A stretch of 32,637 nucleotides of DNA from Desulfobacterales bacterium. Its GTDB lineage: Bacteria; Desulfobacterota; Desulfobacteria; Desulfobacterales; UBA11574. Location: NCBI GenBank assembly GCA_020345745.1, contig CP070768.1, forward strand, positions 2,576,314 to 2,608,950, read 5' to 3'. Positions within the stretch are counted from its first letter, which is position 1; every line of letters starts with the position of its first letter. The position numbers and the translations under genes are program-made. This document shows positions 5,645 to 31,176 of this stretch, piece after piece. Below the pieces are notes generated by a model. The model made no database searches. It saw only the letters and a program-made list of their open reading frames with translations, and was not told the origin of the DNA.

Positions 5645-5786
5645 GAGGCCTTTGTAAAACGTTTAATTTTGATCAAGTTCAAGAAAGACGAAGATTTTAA
5701 CCACAGGCATACATGGAGTATTCCGAGGATTAAAATCTGAGTCTGACACCGAAGTTGGGCAAAAGGGGACGTTTTGCAGAGGCCTC
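5645..5786. repeat. MITE-like element, copy 2 (142 bp, inverted relative to copy 1)
   Basis: Termini GAGGCCTTTGTAAAACG and CGTTTTGCAGAGGCCTC are imperfect inverted repeats of the family. The core CCACAGGCATACATGGAGTA and GATTAAAATCTGAGTCTGAC identifies it as the reverse orientation relative to copy 1. It ends 17 bp before the ATG of the first amidotransferase, so it supplies most of the DNA upstream of that gene's start. No flanking direct repeat is evident. The remaining gap on the amidoligase side (5433-5644) shows no gene. Confidence 0.85.
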
Positions 5787-5803
5787 GAAACGGAGACGAG
5801 ACC

Positions 5804-6544
5804 ATGTGCGACATACTAGCCATCTCGGCAGGTTACAACTATACGCCTCAAAAGTATCTGCCCATCTTCGCGGAAAAGGGCCGTGAAAACATGAACGGCT
5901 GGGGTATCGGTTTTTTCCGCGAGGATCAGGCGCTGGTGGAAAAATCCTCAGAACAGGTATTCGTAAAAGATCGGGTCCACGAAAGCTTCCAAAGACTTGC
6001 CCGAGTTATCGACAGCCGAATAATCATTTCCCATGTGAATTGTCCCAAAAGCGGCGGTCGCCACAGTGCTCATCTCCATCCTTTTACGCTTAACTTTCTG
6101 GACCATAACTGGTTGTTTGCCCATGTGGGCGTTGTTGAAAACATTAACGAATATCAGACTAGTGGCGCACCCCGACTGGATGTCGATGTTTTTACAGCCA
6201 GAATTTTTGAATATTTAAGAGATCAATTGGTATTGCTGAATCAAAAAAACCCCTATATCAGCGTATACATTGCCCTGCGAATTGCAATACAAAAACTTGT
6301 AGATGATTATCCCGGGGATTACACTTTTTTTCTGGCCAATGAATCATTTCTCTTTGCCTTTTGTAATCATAGACAGCTGATGGTTCTCAAAGAGTCTGAA
6401 AGTATGGGAGACATTCTGCTGGTCACTTCCGTCGAAGAAGGGCTAAGTCGCACCGATTGGCATCCCATAACACCGGATCCACAGTCCCAGGGCGAGCTCT
6501 TGGTGATCGCCGGCCCAGATGTGTTGTATGCAGAGGATGTTTGA
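5804..6544 (+). CDS. Class II glutamine amidotransferase, copy 1 (degenerate glutamine pocket)
   Basis: Start ATG 5804 gives M-C-D-I-L-A-I-S, placing the catalytic Cys at position 2 as required for an N-terminal nucleophile amidotransferase. GGAG lies about nine bases upstream. A TTG further upstream lies inside the repeat and would bury the cysteine. The product has 246 residues and keeps N-x-x-G-W-G-I-G-F-F-R, but the usual H-x-R-x-x-T-S-G is S-H-V-N-C-P-K-S-G and the usual V-H-N-G is A-H-V-G. The glutamine-binding Arg and the oxyanion-hole Asn are therefore absent. It is a tandem paralog of the next gene. A non-glutaminase, regulatory or altered-substrate role is likely. It probably belongs with the amidoligase upstream. 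Confidence 0.85.
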   Translation: MCDILAISAGYNYTPQKYLPIFAEKGRENMNGWGIGFFREDQALVEKSSEQVFVKDRVHESFQRLARVIDSRIIISHVNCPKSGGRHSAHLHPFTLNFLDHNWLFAHVGVVENINEYQTSGAPRLDVDVFTARIFEYLRDQLVLLNQKNPYISVYIALRIAIQKLVDDYPGDYTFFLANESFLFAFCNHRQLMVLKESESMGDILLVTSVEEGLSRTDWHPITPDPQSQGELLVIAGPDVLYAEDV

Positions 6545-6597: not shown

Positions 6598-7344
6598 ATG
6601 TGTGATCTTTTCGCACTATCTGCCACAAAGGATTACTCAGCCCCGGAACTTTTACCTATTTTTGCGCTTCGGGCCAAAAAGAACATGGATGGCTGGGGCA
6701 TCGGTTTTTTCCGCAAACATCATGCTGTGGTTGAAAAGTCGGCGGAGCAGATTTTTTACTCCGGACAGTTGCACGACAGCTTCCAAAGACTGGCCCGCGT
6801 AGTAAAGAGCCGAATCATCATTTGTCATATCCGGCTGCGGACCAGCGGTCTTATAGATGAATGCCACGCCCACCCCTTTGCTTTGTCATTCGGTGGTCAT
6901 GACTGGATTTTTGTGCATAATGGCAAAGCCCCGGCCATCGAATCTTACCGAAGTAAACGCACTGCCATTGAAGATGCCATAAGCGACTCGGCCAGGGTGT
7001 TTGAATACCTCAGGGACCAGATAGAAGACCAGCACACACATAATGCAGGGCCGAATATGCTTTTCAATATATTGATGACCAGCACTGCGCAGATGATCGA
7101 CCAATATCCGGGCAACTACAATTTCTTGCTGACCAACGGGCATCTTCTTTTTGCCTTTACCAATCACCGCCAGTTTATGGTTATGAAAGGTAGCAGGAAG
7201 CTGCAAGGCGCCCTGCTGCTCACTACTCTGGCACGCGGCCTTAGTAAAGAAGAAAAGTGGTTGCGGGTGGCAAAGGCCACTAATCGCAGGGGGCTGCTTT
7301 TGGCAATCTCAGGAAATGATGTCATAATACACAAATCGATTTAA
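6598..7344 (+). CDS. Class II glutamine amidotransferase, copy 2 (intact motifs)
   Basis: The 248-residue protein starts M-C-D-L-F-A-L-S with the nucleophile Cys at position 2. It retains N-M-D-G-W-G-I-G-F-F-R, C-H-I-R-L-R-T-S-G (substrate-binding Arg and Thr) and F-V-H-N-G (oxyanion-hole Asn-Gly), so it should release ammonia from glutamine. It resembles the YafJ-type stand-alone amidotransferases, which lack a fused synthase domain. It follows copy 1 by 53 bp and aligns with it throughout, indicating local duplication. The most likely acceptor enzyme is the amidoligase upstream; this is inferred from family gene-neighbourhood knowledge. No strong Shine-Dalgarno precedes the ATG. Confidence 0.88.
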   Translation: MCDLFALSATKDYSAPELLPIFALRAKKNMDGWGIGFFRKHHAVVEKSAEQIFYSGQLHDSFQRLARVVKSRIIICHIRLRTSGLIDECHAHPFALSFGGHDWIFVHNGKAPAIESYRSKRTAIEDAISDSARVFEYLRDQIEDQHTHNAGPNMLFNILMTSTAQMIDQYPGNYNFLLTNGHLLFAFTNHRQFMVMKGSRKLQGALLLTTLARGLSKEEKWLRVAKATNRRGLLLAISGNDVIIHKSI

Positions 7345-8151: not shown

Positions 8152-8538
8152 ATGCACTATTTCAAATCCGTTATTATTGGCTGCCTTCTTTTGTTGGCCA
8201 CGCTAAATTTTTCGGCTTGGTCGGATCAAGGCATTAACACCCAATTGATTAGATTAGAAACTTTTGATGGAATCAACTTAACCGGCGTTTTGCGTCAACA
8301 CCATTCGGTCCCCAACGGTGTTGGGATTGTCATGGTTCATGGTTATAGCGGCAATTTTTACTCCGGGATAATGAATTTTCTCCCCAAAATGCTGGCCGGT
8401 CGACTCCGTAATAGCGCCCCACCAGAAGCCAAGGTAGATGTGGTCAAGATCGCTGGTGCAGGTCATAGCTTATACAACCACCAAAAGGACCTTAAGGATA
8501 CCATGAGCCACTGGCTGATGAGACAGACGAACAACTAA
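8152..8538 (+). pseudogene. Alpha/beta hydrolase with internal in-frame deletion
   Basis: The ORF is intact (128 residues) but looks like the two ends of a longer exported alpha/beta hydrolase joined together. Residues 1-25 form a signal peptide. Residues 50-68 contain G-I-V-M-V-H-G-Y-S-G-N-F-Y-S, the first strand and oxyanion-hole H-G loop. At about residue 82 the sequence jumps to V-D-V-V-K-I-A-G-A-G-H-S-L-Y, the last strand with the catalytic His, followed by the C-terminal helix ending W-L-M-R-Q. The whole centre, including the nucleophile G-x-S-x-G and the acidic residue, is absent. Catalysis is therefore not expected. GAGG precedes the ATG. It could still be expressed as a short exported protein. 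Confidence 0.65.
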
Positions 8539-11265: not shown

Positions 11266-13707
11266 ATGACCGCATCCCCACGTTATATCGAAGTTGCCGT
11301 GGCCCTTCCGGTATACAACACGTATACGTATCGTGTTCCGCAAAACCTTTTGGAATTTGTATCGATTGGAAAAAGAGCACTGGTTCCTTTTGGTCGGCGG
11401 GTCGTAACCGGCTATATTCTCGGCGATAAGACAAAGATTCAGCACGATGATATCAAAACCATTTTAGATATCCTGGATGAAAAACCGCTTTTCCCCGCCT
11501 CGATGATTCCTTTTTTTAAATGGACGTCTGATTATTATATTCATCCTATTGGCGATGTTATTAAATGCGCGCTTCCTGGCGGGCTGAATTTGTATGATTT
11601 TACGACCTTGTCCCTAACAGCCAAAGGCGAGGCGGCGCGTATTGAGAAATCGGTTACACCTCTGGAAGGCCAAATTTTAAAGCAGCTAATGACAAGGTCC
11701 TGTCGCTTTAAGGATCTGGACAAGCATTTTAAGGAGAACATTCCAAAGGCACTACTTCAATCCATGGAACGTCGCGGGTTAATTGTTCTCAAACGTGAAC
11801 TCAAAGGGGGATCAACCAAGACAAAGATGGAACGTTATGTATCATTAACCAACGCTGACATTCCCTTGACCAAGCTTTCAGAGGCACGCAAAAAAATCAT
11901 TGAATCGATTAAAGATCAAAGTGAAATTTCCGTAAAAAAATTAACCGCGCTGGTTCCATCTGCTTCAAAATTGATAAAAATACTTGAGCAGGCCGGCTAT
12001 GTGACGATTTTTCAAAAAAAGATGTATCGTGATCCTTTTGGAGAGCCGATATTGCCCGACAAGGCTCACCAACTAACCAAAGAGCAAAATCATGCTATCT
12101 CTACCGTGATTAAGTCATTGGGTCAAAAGTTTACAACCTACCTTCTTACCGGGGTTACGGGGAGTGGAAAAACCGAAGTTTACATGCAAATTGCAGCCAT
12201 TGCTATGCAAAAGGGATTTTCCGTTCTGGTTCTTGTCCCTGAAATCGCACTGATATCCCAGATGGAACGGCGCTTCCGAGCTCGATTTGGAGACTGCGTG
12301 GCCGTCCTTCACAGCGGGCTTTCTCCCGGAGAACGGTATGATCAGTGGATACGCATCTCGAGAAAAGAGGTGAATATTGCCATCGGCGCTAGATCTGCCA
12401 TCTTTGCACCATTTGTAGATATTGGTCTCATCATCGTGGATGAAGAACATGATACATCTTATAAGCAAGAAAGCGGCCTGAAATACAACGCAAGGGATCT
12501 TGCCATCGTTCGAGCAAAGCTTAATGATAGCGTTGCTCTATTGGGATCCGCCACACCTTCTTTGCAGTCGTACCACAATACGGCAACCAAAAAATTTAAG
12601 GAAATCACCCTCACAAAACGCGTTGAAAAACGACCGCTTCCAGAGATCACGGTTATCGATCTTCGAAAGAGCAGAGATGTCAGGGGGGTGCAACGTTTTA
12701 TTACTCCGGAGCTGCACCATGCTATGGAGACAACGCTCCAGCGAGGCGAGCAGGTTCTTATTTTCCTGAATCGCCGAGGTTTCGCCAGCTTCCCGGTTTG
12801 CTCCTTGTGTGGCCAGTCAATACAATGCAAAAACTGCGACATCTCTCTTACCTTACATCAGAGGGCCAATGCCTACAAATGCCATTATTGTGGCTTTTCA
12901 CGGGCATCCGTATCCAATTGTACCCATTGCGGATCTTCTAAAATCAGATTGTTGGGACTCGGCACCGAAAAAGTCGAAGAAACGATTAAGGCGATTTTCC
13001 CTAACGCGAAGGTCGCCAGAATGGATCGTGATACTACCCGGCATAAAGGATCGATTCGCAAGATTCTAAAGGATCTGAGAAACCAATCCATCGATGTTCT
13101 TGTAGGAACTCAGATGGTTGCCAAAGGTCATGATTTTCCTAACATTACACTGGTCGGTGTTATTTGTGCTGATCTATCCCTTAATTTTCCGGATTTTCGA
13201 GCCGGAGAACGGACCTATCAGCTGTTGGCTCAGGTTGCCGGAAGGGCTGGCCGTGGGGCGGTGCCGGGACGAGTTATTCTCCAAACATACAATCCCGACC
13301 ATTTCAGCATCTTGTCAGCGACAAAACAGGATTTTTTAACCTTTTACAATGCTGAAATCGCTTTTCGAAAAAGCTTAGAATACCCCCCATTTTCAAGGAT
13401 GGCACAGTTAAAAATCTCAGGAATCGATAAAGATAAAACCCGCCAGCATGCACTGGCCGTGGGAGATCTGTGTCATACCCTTAAACAAAGCTGTCCATCT
13501 ACTTTTACCACTTTGGAAATATTAGGACCCATTGAAGCCCTGCTTTCAAAAATCGCCCGGCGTTATCGATGGCAAATTATTTTGAAAAGCCGTAGCGTTC
13601 AATCACTCCATCAGTTTCTTCACCAGGTGTGGTTTAACAATAAAAACATCAGCCACAATCGCTCGGTCATCGTCATGTTGGATGTGGACCCTTTTTTGAT
13701 GACTTAA
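11266..13707 (+). CDS. priA: Primosomal protein N' (replication restart helicase PriA)
   Basis: The 813-residue protein has the PriA layout: an N-terminal 3'-DNA-binding domain (V-A-V-A-L-P-V-Y-N-T-Y-T-Y near 11), a winged-helix region, then a superfamily 2 helicase. Walker A is G-V-T-G-S-G-K-T near 295 and the DEAH-type box is D-E-E-H at about 392. A zinc module of eight cysteines begins near 512 (C-x2-C, C-x2-C, C-x2-C, C-x2-C). Helicase motifs V-G-T-Q-M-V-A-K-G-H-D-F and Q-V-A-G-R-A-G-R follow. PriA reloads the replisome at collapsed forks. It is somewhat longer than the E. coli protein (732). The ATG is chosen because it fits the family's N-terminus; no clear Shine-Dalgarno is present. 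Confidence 0.95.
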   Translation: MTASPRYIEVAVALPVYNTYTYRVPQNLLEFVSIGKRALVPFGRRVVTGYILGDKTKIQHDDIKTILDILDEKPLFPASMIPFFKWTSDYYIHPIGDVIKCALPGGLNLYDFTTLSLTAKGEAARIEKSVTPLEGQILKQLMTRSCRFKDLDKHFKENIPKALLQSMERRGLIVLKRELKGGSTKTKMERYVSLTNADIPLTKLSEARKKIIESIKDQSEISVKKLTALVPSASKLIKILEQAGYVTIFQKKMYRDPFGEPILPDKAHQLTKEQNHAISTVIKSLGQKFTTYLLTGVTGSGKTEVYMQIAAIAMQKGFSVLVLVPEIALISQMERRFRARFGDCVAVLHSGLSPGERYDQWIRISRKEVNIAIGARSAIFAPFVDIGLIIVDEEHDTSYKQESGLKYNARDLAIVRAKLNDSVALLGSATPSLQSYHNTATKKFKEITLTKRVEKRPLPEITVIDLRKSRDVRGVQRFITPELHHAMETTLQRGEQVLIFLNRRGFASFPVCSLCGQSIQCKNCDISLTLHQRANAYKCHYCGFSRASVSNCTHCGSSKIRLLGLGTEKVEETIKAIFPNAKVARMDRDTTRHKGSIRKILKDLRNQSIDVLVGTQMVAKGHDFPNITLVGVICADLSLNFPDFRAGERTYQLLAQVAGRAGRGAVPGRVILQTYNPDHFSILSATKQDFLTFYNAEIAFRKSLEYPPFSRMAQLKISGIDKDKTRQHALAVGDLCHTLKQSCPSTFTTLEILGPIEALLSKIARRYRWQIILKSRSVQSLHQFLHQVWFNNKNISHNRSVIVMLDVDPFLMT

Positions 13708-13774: not shown

Positions 13775-13815
13775 AATGATCGATGAAAATTTTTCGTAAC
13801 ATATTCGAGTTAAGT

Positions 13816-14541
13816 ATGAACCATAAATCTCTGTATGCGTTTATGTTTGCTTTATGTTTCCTTTTTTTTACCAACACCTCATCGGCCACAGAAAATAGTG
13901 CCTTGAATTCGCCGTCTGCTTTTTTCCCTGAATCTCGATTCGAATTTAAGCCCGTTGTCGACGGTGCCGATGTAACCCATTCATTTGTTGTGAAAAATAA
14001 AGGAGCATCACCATTAAAGATTGAGAAGGTCCGGACCGGTTGAGGGTGTACCACTGTCTCTTATACGAGGCTAATCCCTCCGGGCGACGAGGGAACAATA
14101 GTCATTAAAGTCGACACTTCAGGTTACGGTGGAAGAACCTTAAGCAAAAGAATAACCGTCCAAACCAATGACCCCAATCAATCGCTATTTTATCTGACCA
14201 TCATGGGTCGCGTCGAAAAATTTGTCACCATTATCCCCAAAAGCCTAACCTTGCGCGGTGTGGTCGGAAATTCGATAAAACAGACGATGCGGATTATACC
14301 TGAAAAAAAATATCCATTTAACATCGTCGGACATAATCTTAGCCATGGCAACAATATCAGCTATGAGCTGGAGCAAGTTAAACGTTCGGAAAGGATTGAA
14401 TACCTTTTGACGGTTGAGAATTTGAAAAAGGAAAAGGGTGCTTATTTTAATATTATTTCTATAAAAACAGATAGTAAACTAAAGCCATCAATTAATATCC
14501 GCGTTAAAGGCTATATTCAGGACAATCAGCCAATAAAATAG
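13816..14541 (+). CDS. DUF1573 exported protein, candidate selenoprotein (in-frame TGA at conserved Cys)
   Basis: Reading TGA 14041-14043 as selenocysteine, one uninterrupted frame gives 241 residues with Sec at position 76. From ATG 13816, residues 1-22 are a signal peptide (M-N-H-K-S-L-Y-A-F ... S-S-A); an in-frame ATG at 13783 lies almost on the predicted transcription start. The DUF1573 domain (about 34-135) contains K-I-E-K-V-R-T-G-U-G-C-T-T-V-S-Y, where relatives have G-C-G-C-T, so TGA replaces exactly the first conserved Cys and makes a U-x-C pair. The frame continues with clear family sequence (I-P-P-G-D-E-G, N-D-P-N). No frameshift is needed. A hairpin lies 31 nt after the TGA. The gene starts a probable operon with the HAD gene (6 bp gap). 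A simple nonsense mutation or a sequencing error is the alternative. Confidence 0.72.
14075..14094 (+). promoter_or_regulatory. SECIS-like hairpin downstream of in-frame TGA
   Basis: TCCCTC (14075-14080) and GAGGGA (14089-14094) form a 6-bp stem with loop CGGGCGAC, 31 nt after TGA 14041-14043. A competing fold pairs GAGGG (14042-14046, including two bases of the TGA) with CCCTC (14076-14080), with an inner UGUA/UACG stem and a 13-nt loop containing one G. Bacterial SECIS elements follow the UGA closely and expose a loop G. The spacing of the first hairpin is at or slightly beyond the usual long end. Sequence alone does not settle which fold matters. Confidence 0.4.
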
Positions 14542-14547
14542 GTTTCT

Positions 14548-15165
14548 ATGAGAAATATTATCGTTGTCGCTTTTGATTGTGACGGTGTCATGTTTGACAC
14601 AGAAAAAGCAAATATTGCCTATTATAACAGCATCTTGGAATATTTCAATCGGCCGGCCATGACACCGGAACAGTTTGCTTATTGCCATATGCATACCGTT
14701 GATCAGTCCATTTCGAATCTATTTAGTGATGAAGAGAGTTACAAGGCAGCACAAGCTTATCGCAAACGTATGAGTTATTTGCCTTTTTTAAAATACATGG
14801 AAATGGAGCCCTATCTGAAGCCGTTGCTTGAAAAGCTCAGACCGCAATATAAGACTGCCGTTGCCACAAACCGATCCGACACCATGGATCGGGTTCTCAT
14901 TGAACACAGCCTGACAGACTATTTCGACCTTGTGGTCAGTTCTAATGACGTAAAGCGCCCTAAACCTTATCCTGATCCCTTGATTAAAATTCTGGAACAT
15001 TTTAAGATAAAGCCATATCAATCGATTTATGTGGGAGATTCGGAACTCGATCAAATAGCTGCAAAGCTGGCAGATATGCCCTTTGTTGCTTACAAAAACC
15101 GATCCCTTGTTGCTGATTATTATATAGAAAGCTTGCAAGAGATCGAAAAAATTCTCGCGCTGTAG
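14548..15165 (+). CDS. HAD-superfamily hydrolase (phosphoglycolate-phosphatase-like)
   Basis: A 205-residue HAD subfamily IA protein. Motif I is F-D-C-D-G-V-M-F-D-T-E (nucleophile Asp 9, general acid Asp 11). Motif II is A-V-A-T-N-R-S-D near 108. The motif III lysine is in K-R-P-K-P-Y-P near 136, and motif IV is Y-V-G-D-S-E-L-D near 161. A helical cap domain lies between motifs I and II. Such enzymes dephosphorylate phosphoglycolate or other small phosphates. The gene begins six bp after the DUF1573 stop and ends seven bp before the next GTG start, so all three are probably co-transcribed. The substrate is unknown. Confidence 0.88.
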   Translation: MRNIIVVAFDCDGVMFDTEKANIAYYNSILEYFNRPAMTPEQFAYCHMHTVDQSISNLFSDEESYKAAQAYRKRMSYLPFLKYMEMEPYLKPLLEKLRPQYKTAVATNRSDTMDRVLIEHSLTDYFDLVVSSNDVKRPKPYPDPLIKILEHFKIKPYQSIYVGDSELDQIAAKLADMPFVAYKNRSLVADYYIESLQEIEKILAL

Positions 15166-24554: not shown

Positions 24555-25472
24555 ATGCGAACGAATGATATCAAGCTATATGATCTGATCGATTTCAAAA
24601 ATCCGCAAGCGATCCTCAATGAAATTAAAACCATTGTCGCCCTAATCGTCAGCGATTTTGACTATTCCATGTTGGAGCTCATTTATGCTGATGTAGAATC
24701 GATTTTTTCAGGAAAATACCCCGGTTACCAGGCCAGCAATACCAAATATCACGATTTGGAACATACCAGCTCAGTAATGCTGGCTGCCGCCCGCCTTATG
24801 CACGGCAGCTTTTTGCAGGGCAACACGTTTTCCGCTAAAAATATACTCTTGGGATTAGTCGCGGCGCTCTTCCACGATATCGGCTTTATTCAGACCAAAT
24901 CTGACCAAAATGGGTCGGGGGCCAAATATACCATCGGCCACGAGCAACGCAGTGTTGATTTTATGAAGAAATACCTTGCCAAAAAATCGTTTGCATCCCA
25001 GGACATGGATAATTGTTCTCATATCATCATGTGCACGATATTGAATTTAGAACTCGATCAAATTCCTTTCCAGTCCGATGAAATTGAAATGCTGGGAAAA
25101 ATCATCGGCTCGGCAGATCTTTTGGCCCAAATGGCCGACAGGGCGTATTTGGAAAAATTGTTTTTGCTCTTCAGGGAGTTCGAAGAGGCTGGATTGCCTG
25201 GATACGGTTCAGAATTTGAACTACTTCAAAAAACAGAAGATTTTTATAAGCAAGTGGCTAAAAAAAGATTAACTCATCAATTTGATAACATATTCAAATT
25301 CATGCGGTTTCATTTTAAGGATCGATGGAATATCGATCAAGATTTATATGAAAAATCTATTGCAACGAATATTAAGTACTTAAGAGCTATCGTCAAGAAA
25401 TGTAAGTCGTCTGATGAGTGTTTTTTTCAGCATCTAAGGCGCGGAGATATCGCCAAAAAGCTGCGAGACTGA
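24555..25472 (+). CDS. HD-domain metal-dependent phosphohydrolase
   Basis: A 305-residue protein. The core (about 55-200) contains Y-H-D-L-E-H-T, then L-F-H-D-I-G-F (the namesake His-Asp), G-H-E-Q-R-S-V and I-G-S-A-D-L-L-A-Q-M, matching the pattern of HD/PDEase phosphohydrolases that coordinate two metals with His and Asp. No fused GAF or receiver domain is visible. AAGGGG precedes the ATG. It lies divergently from a cAMP-forming response regulator, so hydrolysis of a cyclic nucleotide is an attractive inference, but the substrate is not shown. The C-terminal 100 residues are helical and unassigned. Confidence 0.82.
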   Translation: MRTNDIKLYDLIDFKNPQAILNEIKTIVALIVSDFDYSMLELIYADVESIFSGKYPGYQASNTKYHDLEHTSSVMLAAARLMHGSFLQGNTFSAKNILLGLVAALFHDIGFIQTKSDQNGSGAKYTIGHEQRSVDFMKKYLAKKSFASQDMDNCSHIIMCTILNLELDQIPFQSDEIEMLGKIIGSADLLAQMADRAYLEKLFLLFREFEEAGLPGYGSEFELLQKTEDFYKQVAKKRLTHQFDNIFKFMRFHFKDRWNIDQDLYEKSIATNIKYLRAIVKKCKSSDECFFQHLRRGDIAKKLRD

Positions 25473-25538
25473 TGCTGTTTTGTAGAAAACAACCTGTTTG
25501 AAACCCTTGAAAAAGGTTTTTAAATAACACAGATTATT

Positions 25539-25624
25539 CCGATCAGGGGTGTTCTGGCCTGAATACAGAACTGAGAGCATACCCTTTGAACCTGATACAG
25601 TTAGTACTGTCGTAGGGAAATCGG
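25539..25624 (+). promoter_or_regulatory. TPP riboswitch (THI element)
   Basis: The conserved blocks of the thiamine-pyrophosphate aptamer are all present in order: CAGGGGTG, CTGAGAGCATACCCTTTGAA, CCTGATACAGTTAGTACTG and CGTAGGGAA. The closing stem P1 is a perfect CCGAT (25539-25543) / ATCGG (25620-25624). The helix CAG...CTG around TTAGTA matches P5. When TPP binds, downstream expression normally falls. No thiamine gene follows; the first gene is an aldo/keto reductase 235 bp later. Confidence 0.93.
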
Positions 25625-25808
25625 AGAACAGATTAAGAACCGTTCATTTTTTCCCAGCATTCTTGCCTCATTCTTCCATTCCCCAAAGACAATATCACCC
25701 TAAATGAGCGTAAACAAAATGAAGGCGCGAAACTGGAATATAGTGCGTAAAAAATCGATCTTTATCGGTACCGATGAAAAACCTTTACTTTTTTCTTTTT
25801 AGATCATA

Positions 25809-25840
25809 AAAAACCTGAAACCCGTAAACCTTTGGTTTTT
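25809..25840 (+). promoter_or_regulatory. Possible riboswitch expression platform hairpin
   Basis: AAAAACC (25809-25815) can pair with GGTTTTT (25834-25840); a nearer AAACC (25826-25830) can compete for the same arm with loop TTT. The structure ends 18 bp before the AKR start codon. It might act as a weak terminator or leader switch. The rest of 25625-25808 has no recognised gene. Confidence 0.3.
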
Positions 25841-25858
25841 GAAACGTTAGAGAGAGCC

Positions 25859-26884
25859 ATGAATCGAATGATATTGGGGAAAACAGGAATCGAAATTACT
25901 CGCTTTGGCTTTGGGGGAATCCCCATTCAGCGGGTGGAAGAAAAGCAGGCCGTCGAAACCGTGCGTCACGCTGTTGCAAAGGGAGTCGATTTTATCGATA
26001 CCTCCCGCGCTTACACCACGAGCGAAAGGCGCATCGGACTGGCGCTAAAAAAGACAAACCAACGGGTTGTTCTGGCATCCAAATCCAGAGCCAGAACCTC
26101 GGATGCTGTTCAAAAAGATTTAGCAACGAGTCTAAAAGAACTTCAAAAGGATTATATTGACATTTATCAGTGTCATTTTGTTCAAAATGACGATGACTAT
26201 CAACAGGTGATCTCTCCAGGAGGTGCTCTTGAAGGGCTGATTCAGGCCAAAAAGAGCGGGTTGATTGGACACATCGGAATCACCAGCCACAATCTTCATC
26301 TTATGGATCGCATTCTCGATGATGGACATTTTGAAACTATTATGGTCTGCTTTAGCTTTTTAGAACCCAAAGCCCGTGAAACAATCATCCCCAAGGCCAT
26401 TGAAAATAATGTCGGCGTTATCGCCATGAAGTCCTTCTCTGGAGGTATTATTGACCATCCAGAGCTGGCTATAAAATACGCATTGTCTTATCCGGATATC
26501 GCCATCATACCCGGTGTCGAAAGCAAAGACCTGTTTGATCAAAACTGGAACGTTTTTCTGGGGACTCACGAGCTGAGCGACAAAGAAAAACAAGAGATCG
26601 AAAAAATCATAAAACAGTATGACAAGAATTTTTGTAGACGCTGTGATTACTGTCAGCCATGTAGCGAAGATATACCCATTCAACTGATCCTTGGCCTGCG
26701 CTGGGCGCTCAAACGGTTTGGGAAAGGCTTTGCTGAGGAAGAATGGCCCCGGAAATCGATTGCAAAGGCTAGAAGCTGTTCCGAATGCGGTGAATGTTTA
26801 GACCGCTGTCCCTATCAACTGCCAGTCCCGGATCTGATAAAAGAAAATATCCAATGGCTGGATGACAATCTGACGAAACCTTAA
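25859..26884 (+). CDS. Aldo/keto reductase with C-terminal ferredoxin-type [4Fe-4S] domain
   Basis: ATG 25859 follows AGAGAGAG; a TTG nine codons earlier lies in a hairpin and is rejected. The 341-residue protein has an AKR barrel: L-G-K-T-G-I-E-I-T-R-F-G-F-G-G at the start, D-T-S-R-A-Y near 45 (catalytic Asp and Tyr), A-S-K near 70 and Y-Q-C-H-F near 105 (catalytic Lys and His). The C-terminal part carries C-R-R-C-D-Y-C-Q-P-C and C-S-E-C-G-E-C-L-D-R-C-P-Y, enough for one or two [4Fe-4S] clusters. It may exchange electrons with ferredoxin as well as NAD(P)H. It is the first gene after the TPP riboswitch. Substrate unknown. Confidence 0.9.
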   Translation: MNRMILGKTGIEITRFGFGGIPIQRVEEKQAVETVRHAVAKGVDFIDTSRAYTTSERRIGLALKKTNQRVVLASKSRARTSDAVQKDLATSLKELQKDYIDIYQCHFVQNDDDYQQVISPGGALEGLIQAKKSGLIGHIGITSHNLHLMDRILDDGHFETIMVCFSFLEPKARETIIPKAIENNVGVIAMKSFSGGIIDHPELAIKYALSYPDIAIIPGVESKDLFDQNWNVFLGTHELSDKEKQEIEKIIKQYDKNFCRRCDYCQPCSEDIPIQLILGLRWALKRFGKGFAEEEWPRKSIAKARSCSECGECLDRCPYQLPVPDLIKENIQWLDDNLTKP

Positions 26885-27756: not shown

Positions 27757-30700
27757 TCAAAAAAGCTTAAGCTGTTCCGAGTCTTTCTTTTTTTTCTTTC
27801 CATAGACAGGTTTATCGTATGTTTTTAATCCTTCTTCAATATCTTTCACGAACGGAGATATTTTTCGTATCTCTGTTTGCCCATAAATTTTGCGTTTTTT
27901 TGCATACGTCAAATAGAGCCTATCCTGTGTACGGGTCGCGGCAACATAAAACAGGCGTCTTTCTTCATTAATATCCGTTCCATCTTTATCAAACCGTATA
28001 TACGGAAGATAACCATTTTCACAACCGGAAATAAAAACAACCGGAAATTCAAGGCCTTTTGCAGCATGCATGGTCATCAATGCAACCTTCTCTGCATGTT
28101 GGGCATATGCATCAGTATCGGTCTGAAGGTCAATTTGAGAAAGAAATTCAGAAAGATCGAAATCGACCCTTTTTGCAATATCAAAAAGATGGTTCACTGC
28201 TTTTATTACGGTTTGATCACGACGGTTTATTTTTATAAACGCAGCGTTTTCCACTAGATAATGAAGTTTTTTGTTAATCGTAAAGCCGTGAATCGTTTCC
28301 TTTATTTTTGCAATGTTATCTATAAAAACTACCAATTTTCTCTGTACGTTTCTGGTTATTGCTTTGATTGGAAATCGTTTTGCATGCAACAGCGATGAAG
28401 AAAGGGAAAGGCTGTTTTTGTAACACCAGTTTTTAAACATATGGATCTCTTGTTTTTTAAAGCCCCATTTTTTCGCTGTTATTATTTTTTCAAAATCGAC
28501 GTAACACCCCGACCCTTCAACAATTTTTAACAGCGATATCAGCTCTTTTATGCCTTTTTCATTAAACATTCTTTTTCTGCTGACAACCTGATAAGGAATC
28601 CCCGCAGAATCAAAAACATCGGAAAAGACCCTGCTTTGATCGTGTGTTCGAAACAGGACAGCAAAATCAGAAAAGCTTCGTTGGTTGTCTCTGTTGGTAT
28701 CATCAACCTTATCAAAATCGAAAGAATGGAAACCTACACCGCCGATCAAATCCTCGATGACCTTACCAATGGCAACAGCCTCTGCTCTTGCTGATGGTGC
28801 CTCTATGACACTGATGGTATTAATGCCATCAATCTTTGAAAAGATGCGCTCATCTCCAGCCTGATGCTTGTTTATAATCTGTTGAGAAGCATCTAATATC
28901 GTCTTTGAAGATCGATAGTTCCGGGTTAAATTCAACATCGTAGCATCCGGATAATCCTTGATAAAACCCTTAAAATATTTAACATCCGAACCTCTAAAAC
29001 CATAAATGGATTGGTCTGGATCACCGATAACACAGATATTTCTTCCCGGTTTATTTGGCGGAACCAAAGACATTATCATTCGATATTGCCCATAGTTTAG
29101 ATCTTGATATTCATCAATAAAAACAAACTTGAAACGATTGCGGATAGTTTTGGCAAACATTATGTCCGTTTCAAACCGCTGAACGGTTTTAAAAATTAGA
29201 TCTTCAAAATCAAAGAGCCCTGACAGGGATAAGATGTTTTGGTATGCCTTGTAGACAGCGTTGAAAAGGTGTTTTTTTGAGTCTGGAACATGATTGGCGT
29301 GATCGGAAGGACCAATGAGGTGTTGTTTGGCAAAAACAATCCAATCCAAAACCGTTTGTGGTTTTTCGGTGATTTTTTCGACATGTTCCTCAACCTGCTG
29401 CATTGCATCTATAATTAACGTGAAACGATCTTCTTCTCCTATGATTACCGGGGGTTTTTCCTCATAATCCCTTAACATCTTAAAGCAAAAACTGTGAAAT
29501 GTGCCAATAAAAGGTAATTGCTTGGAATTAAACAGTATATATTCTAACCTTTCGCGCATCTCAGCGGCGGCTTTGTTGGTAAACGCGATGGCCAGTATGG
29601 TCTCTGGGGGAGCGTCTTGCTTTTCCACGAGGTAGGCGATCCGGTGGGTAAGGGTTCGCGTTTTACCTGTGCCCGGTCCTGCGATAATCATTAAAGGCCC
29701 GCCAACATGTTCGACGGCAAGTCGCTGTTGGCGGTTTAGTTCTTTGAACACGGATGAAACTTTACCTTCTGGTGCCCCTCTTTTTATTTGGTCATCGATC
29801 TTGACATCATCTATTTTGGGTTTGGTATTTTTGATAAACCTTGGTTTTGCTTTTTCGTTGTTCTTAATTAATGTGGTTTGCTCTGGTATTACGAAAAGGG
29901 ATTTTTGACCTAAAAGCGCCTCTCTTTCTTGTGAATCAAAGATGTTTATCTTCCCAAACTCTCCGTCATAACCCGGCAAAGGTTTAATTTTATTTTGTCG
30001 CATTCTTTTGACAGCTTCACCCAATAATGGAACATCTGCCCCTTCGATGGTTTCAATTGCTAGTGTGCGTAAAATCGTTAATTCTGCACCCAATTTTTTG
30101 AGTAGCGTCATATAATTGTTTTTTACTTTCTTGGATGTCGGGCCGACCTTTAATACTTCCGATAAAATTTCCACTAGTGGTATAAGATTATAAAACGGGT
30201 GTGTTCTCTTGGGTTTTTCACCTTCAGATCGATCTGCAAGCTCTTCAACCCGATACATAACCCCTAAGGTCAGCGGTTTCTGGCATACAGGACATATGCC
30301 TTTTATTTTTTTGGTGTTTTCAGGCCACAACCTGACGTTGCACTTTCGGTGCCCGTCGAGATGATATTTACCTTCCTCTGGATAAAATTCTATGGTGCCC
30401 AGAAACCGTTCAGGATCACCGGTTTTCATCGCTGCCTTTATTGCTGAAAAGGATAAGGTCGTGTTAAAAAGGTTGGCTTCTCGACCCATTTTTAACGGAG
30501 AATGGGCATCCGAATTAGAAATAAGCGTTAATTCATCAAGTCCTGAGACCCGCCAGTTCATTGCAGGATCAGACGAGAGGCCCGTTTCAACAGCAAATAC
30601 ATGTGAAGTTAAATATTCAAAACATTCTTCAATCGAATCAAAACCAGATTTTGAACCAAAAAGAGAAAACCACGGTGTCCAGATGTGCGCCGGTATCAAG

Positions 30701-31176
30701 AATGACGCTTGCGACACATCCAGGAGTGTTTCGAGAAGATCCCGAGCATCCAATCCCAATATCGGTCTGCCATCCGAATGTATATTGCCTATTTTATCTA
30801 ATCTCGCGTTAAATCGCTCCGCTATTTCAAGGGCTGGAATAAAGACAAGATTATGATTTTTTCTGGTTTTCTGGTTTTTTTTATATATGTTGCTGATTTC
30901 CGAAACCAGTATAAAACGGATTTTACCACGGCAAGATGTCGGTACCTGTTTGTCACAGTATTTTGCTATTTTATCTTTGAGTTTGAAAAGTCCTGGCTCT
31001 GCAGGAACCAACTTTTCTTTAATCTCAGCAAACCAGCCTGGGTGGGTAAAATCACCTGTCCCAACAACGGTAATTCCCTTTAATTGAGCAGCAATATACA
31101 GATTTTCCAAATCAAGATTTTTTGCTGTTGCCCTTGAAAATCGGGAGTGAACATGAAAATCAGCAATAAATTTCAT
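27757..31176 (-). CDS. EndoQ-like PHP nuclease fused to UvrD/Rep helicase, with C-terminal clamp-binding-like motif
   Basis: This 1139-residue protein joins two enzymes. Residues 1 to about 425 are a PHP-family nuclease: F-H-V-H-S (His8, His10), G-D-F-T-H (Asp42, His45), Glu117, A-H-I-W (His164) and S-D-A-H (Asp223, His225). A zinc module (Cys279, Cys295, Cys298) and G-T-I-E-F-Y-P-E-E-G-K-Y-H and V-E-E-L-A-D-R follow. This layout matches TIGR00375/endonuclease Q, which nicks DNA 5' of deaminated bases. Residues about 475-1120 are a superfamily 1 helicase: A-G-P-G-T-G-K-T (499-506), D-E-Y-Q-D, G-D-P-D-Q-S-I-Y-G-F-R-G, R-N-Y-R-S, H-A-A-K-G-L-E-F and Y-V-A-A-T-R. The protein ends K-K-K-D-S-E-Q-L-K-L-F, like the QL(S/D)LF sliding-clamp motif. 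The divergent neighbour is a clamp gene. Confidence 0.92.
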   Translation of the reverse strand: MKFIADFHVHSRFSRATAKNLDLENLYIAAQLKGITVVGTGDFTHPGWFAEIKEKLVPAEPGLFKLKDKIAKYCDKQVPTSCRGKIRFILVSEISNIYKKNQKTRKNHNLVFIPALEIAERFNARLDKIGNIHSDGRPILGLDARDLLETLLDVSQASFLIPAHIWTPWFSLFGSKSGFDSIEECFEYLTSHVFAVETGLSSDPAMNWRVSGLDELTLISNSDAHSPLKMGREANLFNTTLSFSAIKAAMKTGDPERFLGTIEFYPEEGKYHLDGHRKCNVRLWPENTKKIKGICPVCQKPLTLGVMYRVEELADRSEGEKPKRTHPFYNLIPLVEILSEVLKVGPTSKKVKNNYMTLLKKLGAELTILRTLAIETIEGADVPLLGEAVKRMRQNKIKPLPGYDGEFGKINIFDSQEREALLGQKSLFVIPEQTTLIKNNEKAKPRFIKNTKPKIDDVKIDDQIKRGAPEGKVSSVFKELNRQQRLAVEHVGGPLMIIAGPGTGKTRTLTHRIAYLVEKQDAPPETILAIAFTNKAAAEMRERLEYILFNSKQLPFIGTFHSFCFKMLRDYEEKPPVIIGEEDRFTLIIDAMQQVEEHVEKITEKPQTVLDWIVFAKQHLIGPSDHANHVPDSKKHLFNAVYKAYQNILSLSGLFDFEDLIFKTVQRFETDIMFAKTIRNRFKFVFIDEYQDLNYGQYRMIMSLVPPNKPGRNICVIGDPDQSIYGFRGSDVKYFKGFIKDYPDATMLNLTRNYRSSKTILDASQQIINKHQAGDERIFSKIDGINTISVIEAPSARAEAVAIGKVIEDLIGGVGFHSFDFDKVDDTNRDNQRSFSDFAVLFRTHDQSRVFSDVFDSAGIPYQVVSRKRMFNEKGIKELISLLKIVEGSGCYVDFEKIITAKKWGFKKQEIHMFKNWCYKNSLSLSSSLLHAKRFPIKAITRNVQRKLVVFIDNIAKIKETIHGFTINKKLHYLVENAAFIKINRRDQTVIKAVNHLFDIAKRVDFDLSEFLSQIDLQTDTDAYAQHAEKVALMTMHAAKGLEFPVVFISGCENGYLPYIRFDKDGTDINEERRLFYVAATRTQDRLYLTYAKKRKIYGQTEIRKISPFVKDIEEGLKTYDKPVYGKKKKKDSEQLKLF

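Follow-up and report, generated by a model that had tools for sequence, protein, structure and literature searches.

We identified in the genome of a Desulfobacterales bacterium (assembly GCA_020345745.1) a DUF1573 gene that, judging from sequence comparison, almost certainly reads the UGA codon at 14041 as selenocysteine (Sec). This level of confidence covers the Sec reading and not the biochemical role of the protein. The gene occupies positions 13816 to 14541 of the window, by which we mean the whole stretch of 32,637 nucleotides that was analysed (contig CP070768.1, positions 2,576,314 to 2,608,950, forward strand). The protein is a true selenoprotein and adds a new organism to a known family. 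The preliminary description took a DUF1573 selenoprotein to be undescribed, which was wrong: the "DUF1573 domain-containing protein" with a UGC motif is listed as a selenoprotein family after Zhang and Gladyshev 2007, whose entry, as those lists give it, comes from an Olavius algarvensis symbiont (PMC9312934, PMC13188914), and the NCBIfam model NF041425 exists for it. Because the family was first reported in 2007, the selenoprotein is real but not new. What is added here is modest, namely the conservation of the locus, the breadth of the family in the order, and a two-hairpin RNA element, and the 2007 paper, represented here by its listed entry, may already show part of this.

A DUF1573 gene with an in-frame UGA codon

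The gene, its motif residues, and its conserved neighbours lie in the window as follows.

13816..14541, + strand: DUF1573/OS_HP2-family selenoprotein gene, 241 amino acids with Sec76 (Pfam, NCBIfam, structure model, fold search)
14041..14043, + strand: UGA codon predicted to be read as selenocysteine, Sec76 (TGA/Cys-codon column; recurrence across the order and the phylum)
14041..14049, + strand: Sec-Gly-Cys motif, U76-G77-C78 (all 39 sequences agree at positions 76, as U or C, 77, and 78)
13978..13980, + strand: codon for His55, which alone among the His residues is invariant across the 39 homologs
11266..13707, + strand: priA, conserved upstream neighbour (Pfam; adjoins the Sec gene across the order)
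14548..15165, + strand: HAD-family hydrolase, conserved downstream neighbour (Pfam; 6 nt after the stop of the Sec gene)

The open reading frame begins at the ATG at 13816, which was picked by homolog alignment (another in-frame ATG lies upstream at 13783), and its stop codon ends at 14541. A single in-frame TGA is found at 14041–14043, codon 76, followed by 165 codons without a further stop. These are the position, where the Cys-Gly-Cys motif of DUF1573 has its first Cys, and the length of intact frame that the preliminary description had claimed. The Pfam DUF1573 match (PF07610) spans the TGA, covering residues 37–133 with an E value of 4.5e-21 and a score of 75.1 bits (gathering cut-off 26.1), and NF041425, "OS_HP2 family (seleno)protein", matches with 147.2 bits and an E value of 1.4e-43 (curated cut-off 100). 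The U/C-G-C motif of NF041425, in which TGA or a Cys codon specifies the first position, is present, here within the residues VRTGUGCTTVSYTR. Compared with the listed OS_HP2/DUF1573 UGC selenoprotein, the protein described here has the same PF07610 domain, the same UGC motif, and the same Sec column, and nothing essential differs.

Within the order, 342 of 389 genomes contain a homolog, and the best-scoring order-wide matches have, with few exceptions, exactly one internal TGA. When 50 homologous loci were aligned, the codon in this column was TGA in 42, TGC in five, and TGT in three, which is the alternation between TGA and Cys codons (42 versus 8 loci) that had been proposed as a check. The recurrence of TGA in the same column at 42 of 50 loci means that it is not there by chance. 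A phylum-wide sample gave 31 places above the family cut-off with TGA and nine without it. Thus, one hallmark of bacterial selenoproteins, an in-frame TGA that aligns with Cys in homologs and recurs in several sequences, was found for this gene. A related-locus search with the single DUF1573 protein alone returned one locus.

Cys-containing DUF1573 proteins (PF07610) carry C-G-C in place of U-G-C and, unlike the Sec forms, lie mostly at other loci. The residue preceding the motif also differs: among 33 Sec forms it is Gly in 31, and among six Cys forms it is Ser or Thr in five. The G-C-G-C-T motif named in the preliminary description thus needs a small correction, since the Cys forms mainly read S/T-C-G-C-T. 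Sec and Cys copies occur together in some genomes (G035, G049, G176, and G032). A tree of 39 sequences requires three changes of state, with many weak forks, and an exchange of Sec and Cys at one locus appears likely because one Cys form (L063) occupies the same place between priA and the HAD gene.

The order priA–DUF1573–HAD is kept in most members of the order whose contig reaches far enough. The suggestion that the gene heads an operon holds only in part, as priA precedes it on the same strand at a distance of 108 nt, in a conserved order, and the two genes may therefore be co-transcribed. A promoter scan of the gap between them gave matches at chance level. Copies at other loci (L053, L054, L057, and L058) stand beside genes that by eye resemble formate dehydrogenase and HdrA. 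Two Sec paralogs with a C-terminal extension (L059 and L061) lie just upstream of a gene that by eye resembles a type II secretion pseudopilin.

Elsewhere in the window, a TPP riboswitch (RF00059, 72.4 bits) was detected at 25535–25635 (+), upstream of a gene at 25832–26884 that by eye is aldo/keto reductase-like and is not an obvious thiamine gene. Adjacent genes at 5774–6544 and 6598–7344 (+) encode similar proteins that by eye resemble class II glutamine amidotransferases and are likely a tandem duplication. In addition, a short exported hydrolase-like reading frame at 8152–8538 (+) appears by eye to retain both ends of an alpha/beta hydrolase, possibly owing to an internal deletion.

Predicted fold and the Sec-Gly-Cys pair

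In the structure model (pLDDT 90), a helix typical of signal peptides at the N terminus precedes two beta-sandwich domains. A signal peptide is predicted at about residues 1–25, followed by two tandem Ig-like beta domains of the ASH/HYDIN-like kind, and in the model the U-G-C motif sits on a turn between strands 67–74 and 78–83. A fold search of the PDB returned many Ig-like and ASH domains, including those of the cilia central pair and 2qsv, and no enzyme, and a sequence search of the PDB gave no meaningful relative. Tandem Ig-like beta domains are likewise found, by fold, in Cys DUF1573 proteins such as 2qsv from Porphyromonas gingivalis. On the basis of the model, the selenoprotein would be exported and folded as two Ig-like beta domains, and Sec76 and Cys78 would form a selenol-thiol pair on an exposed turn outside the cytoplasm.

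Such a pair could form a reversible Se-S bridge, or it could serve as a ligand for soft metals or sulfur species, perhaps together with His55, a possible partner of Sec76 and Cys78. We consider it probable that the pair carries out one or the other, redox or soft-metal/sulfur chemistry, and between redox and metal binding we slightly favour redox. The competing proposal is that Sec76, Cys78, and His55 make up a site for Cu, Hg, Ag, or a similar soft metal, which would make this a periplasmic metal-binding or metal-sensing protein rather than a redox enzyme. It draws on the U/C-x-C motif and the one invariant His being the only invariant candidate ligands, and on a beta-sandwich fold without an evident enzyme pocket. 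However, no metal transporter or regulator was seen among the neighbours in the loci that were read, and the rhodanese and DoxX/MauE-like membrane protein genes (by eye) that a Cys paralog in Desulfonema magnum (L046) follows fit sulfur or thiol redox chemistry better. We regard a dedicated metal site as rather unlikely. At the priA locus, none of the neighbours points to a specific reaction.

Tandem hairpins 3' of the UGA codon

A SECIS-like hairpin 3' of the UGA had been proposed as a further check, and two conserved tandem hairpins were found there (columns 14–33 and 35–54 of the alignment), with pairing near chance in the Cys homologs.

14054..14073, + strand: hairpin 1 of the SECIS-like element (compensatory changes, comparison with Cys homologs, codon-shuffle null)
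14075..14094, + strand: hairpin 2 of the SECIS-like element (comparison, codon-shuffle null; at the spacing edge of the bSECIS limits)

In the window, the core of hairpin 1 is formed by 14056–14060 pairing with 14067–14071, and its 6-nt loop begins 17 nt after the UGA. The stem of hairpin 2 comprises 6 bp and its loop 8 nt, CGGGCGAC; the second loop position is a G, and the loop lies 37 nt from the UGA. Taken singly, the 66-nt segment in the window does not fold exceptionally well (z of 0.21 against dinucleotide shuffles and −1.5 against the codon null), so the evidence for the RNA element is comparative. Across 34 Sec sequences, compensatory changes were observed at five pairs of hairpin 1. 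Cells with changes on both sides of helix 1 numbered 12, compared with 3.7 in the shuffles, and none of 500 shuffles was as high; the covariation score of the whole two-hairpin structure was likewise reached by none of 500. The same covariation test gave chance values for eight Cys sequences.

Pairing was also compared with a codon null, in which the protein is kept and synonymous codons are redrawn. The Sec genes form 6.1 of 7 pairs in helix 1 versus 3.67 in the null (sd 0.19) and 7.18 of 8 pairs in helix 2 versus 4.81 (sd 0.17), and their mean minimum free energy is −19.8 versus −13.6. For the Cys genes, the corresponding values of −10.4 and −10.3 show no difference. Three Sec genes (L043, L062, and L067) contain one additional codon; hairpin 1 is retained in them, and its stem is longer. 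Moreover, several Sec homologs that belong to other families in the phylum have both hairpins, whereas the two clear Cys forms from such families (L114 and L115) are without them. Exceptions to this pattern are L121 and, for hairpin 1, L125. A second hallmark of bacterial selenoproteins, a conserved RNA hairpin directly 3' of the UGA, is thus present in this family.

The bSECIS model calls for a G in the first two loop positions and a spacing of 16–37 nt (PMC13188914). Like the canonical bSECIS, the element described here has an in-frame hairpin directly after the UGA, with GG at the loop of hairpin 2 and, in the window, that hairpin's 6-bp stem and 8-nt loop. However, it consists of two tandem hairpins. 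Hairpin 1, at 17 nt, is within the permitted spacing, but most sequences lack the early loop G. Hairpin 2 has a loop 37–39 nt from the UGA: in the window it fits at the edge of the limits, and in most homologs the GG loop, at 39 nt, is just beyond the range.

It is possible, and we suggest it tentatively, that the two hairpins act as a compound Sec signal in which hairpin 1 shortens the path to the loop of hairpin 2. Hairpin 1, which starts about 10 nt after the UGA, would fold away about 20 nt, so that SelB would meet the hairpin 2 GG loop at a working distance of about 19 nt instead of the nominal 37–39 nt. As part of the same tentative proposal, RNA pairing rather than protein function would fix residues, for example the Arg encoded on the 3' side of hairpin 1, as well as the choice of codons there. 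The way in which SelB deals with a distant loop could be tested on these tandem hairpins.

Proposed decoding of the UGA codon

We propose that the UGA at 14041 would be decoded as Sec by SelB and tRNA-Sec, that the two tandem hairpins inside the coding sequence, just 3' of the codon, would direct this decoding, and that the product would be a full-length exported DUF1573/OS_HP2 selenoprotein. The selA, selB, and selD genes, whose presence had been named as a check, were all found in the genome (608, 382, and 372 bits, respectively), and selD has its own in-frame TGA. No selC was detected in the draft genome by Rfam, by an anticodon-loop pattern, or by BLAST with the gene of a relative. Sub-threshold tRNA-Sec candidates were rejected as Trp, Ser, Leu, and Glu tRNAs. 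Members of the same family carry a nearly identical, canonical 98-nt tRNA-Sec(UCA), and in those of the relatives' loci whose flanks were read, selC adjoins a gene named by eye as an M20 peptidase. The copy of this peptidase gene in the present genome is without its N-terminal third, being cut on the selC side by an N100 gap at about 1,300,600 of C1 in this genome; the assembly is a draft joined by such runs, with 17 in the roughly 113 kb covered. The simplest reading of these sequences is that selC was lost in the assembly gap beside the M20 peptidase gene. Separately, odd tRNAs with a UCA anticodon, about 87–91 nt long and unlike the 98-nt tRNA-Sec, were noted in related loci (L099, 81–171; L100, 1439–1525; L088, 1501–1591), and two genomes (G202 and G021) have both an odd UCA tRNA and the canonical tRNA-Sec.

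The undetected selC leaves some room for the UGA to be read through as an amino acid other than Sec, or to act as a regulated stop that yields a short product. Either is very improbable, as Cys is without exception the alternative residue in the column, the genome encodes SelA, SelB, and a SelD whose own gene contains a TGA, and the relatives have a canonical tRNA-Sec. TGA is not generally reassigned either, because it serves as the stop of other genes in the window, among which those at 24555–25472 and 27757–31176 would run on if TGA encoded a residue. The idea that the TGA arose in a Cys gene by nonsense mutation or base-call error, which a lone TGA in an otherwise ordinary frame and a draft assembly with gaps might suggest, is practically negligible, being refuted already by the recurrence of TGA in the same column at 42 loci from many genera, and opposed as well by covarying hairpins specific to the TGA forms and by purifying selection on the downstream frame (dN/dS of about 0.15–0.42 3' of the TGA in 13 close pairs of Sec genes). 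The earlier claim that the gene is not decaying thus holds, and the alternation of TGA with Cys codons, the hairpins, and selA, selB, and selD, with no sign of decay, support its reading as a selenoprotein gene.

Overall, a true selenoprotein can be picked out by blind reading of sequence, and the OS_HP2/DUF1573 family, hitherto a table entry, proves to be near-universal, at a fixed locus, in one large bacterial order. The wide retention of Sec across this order suggests that the protein supports an important extracytoplasmic selenium chemistry.
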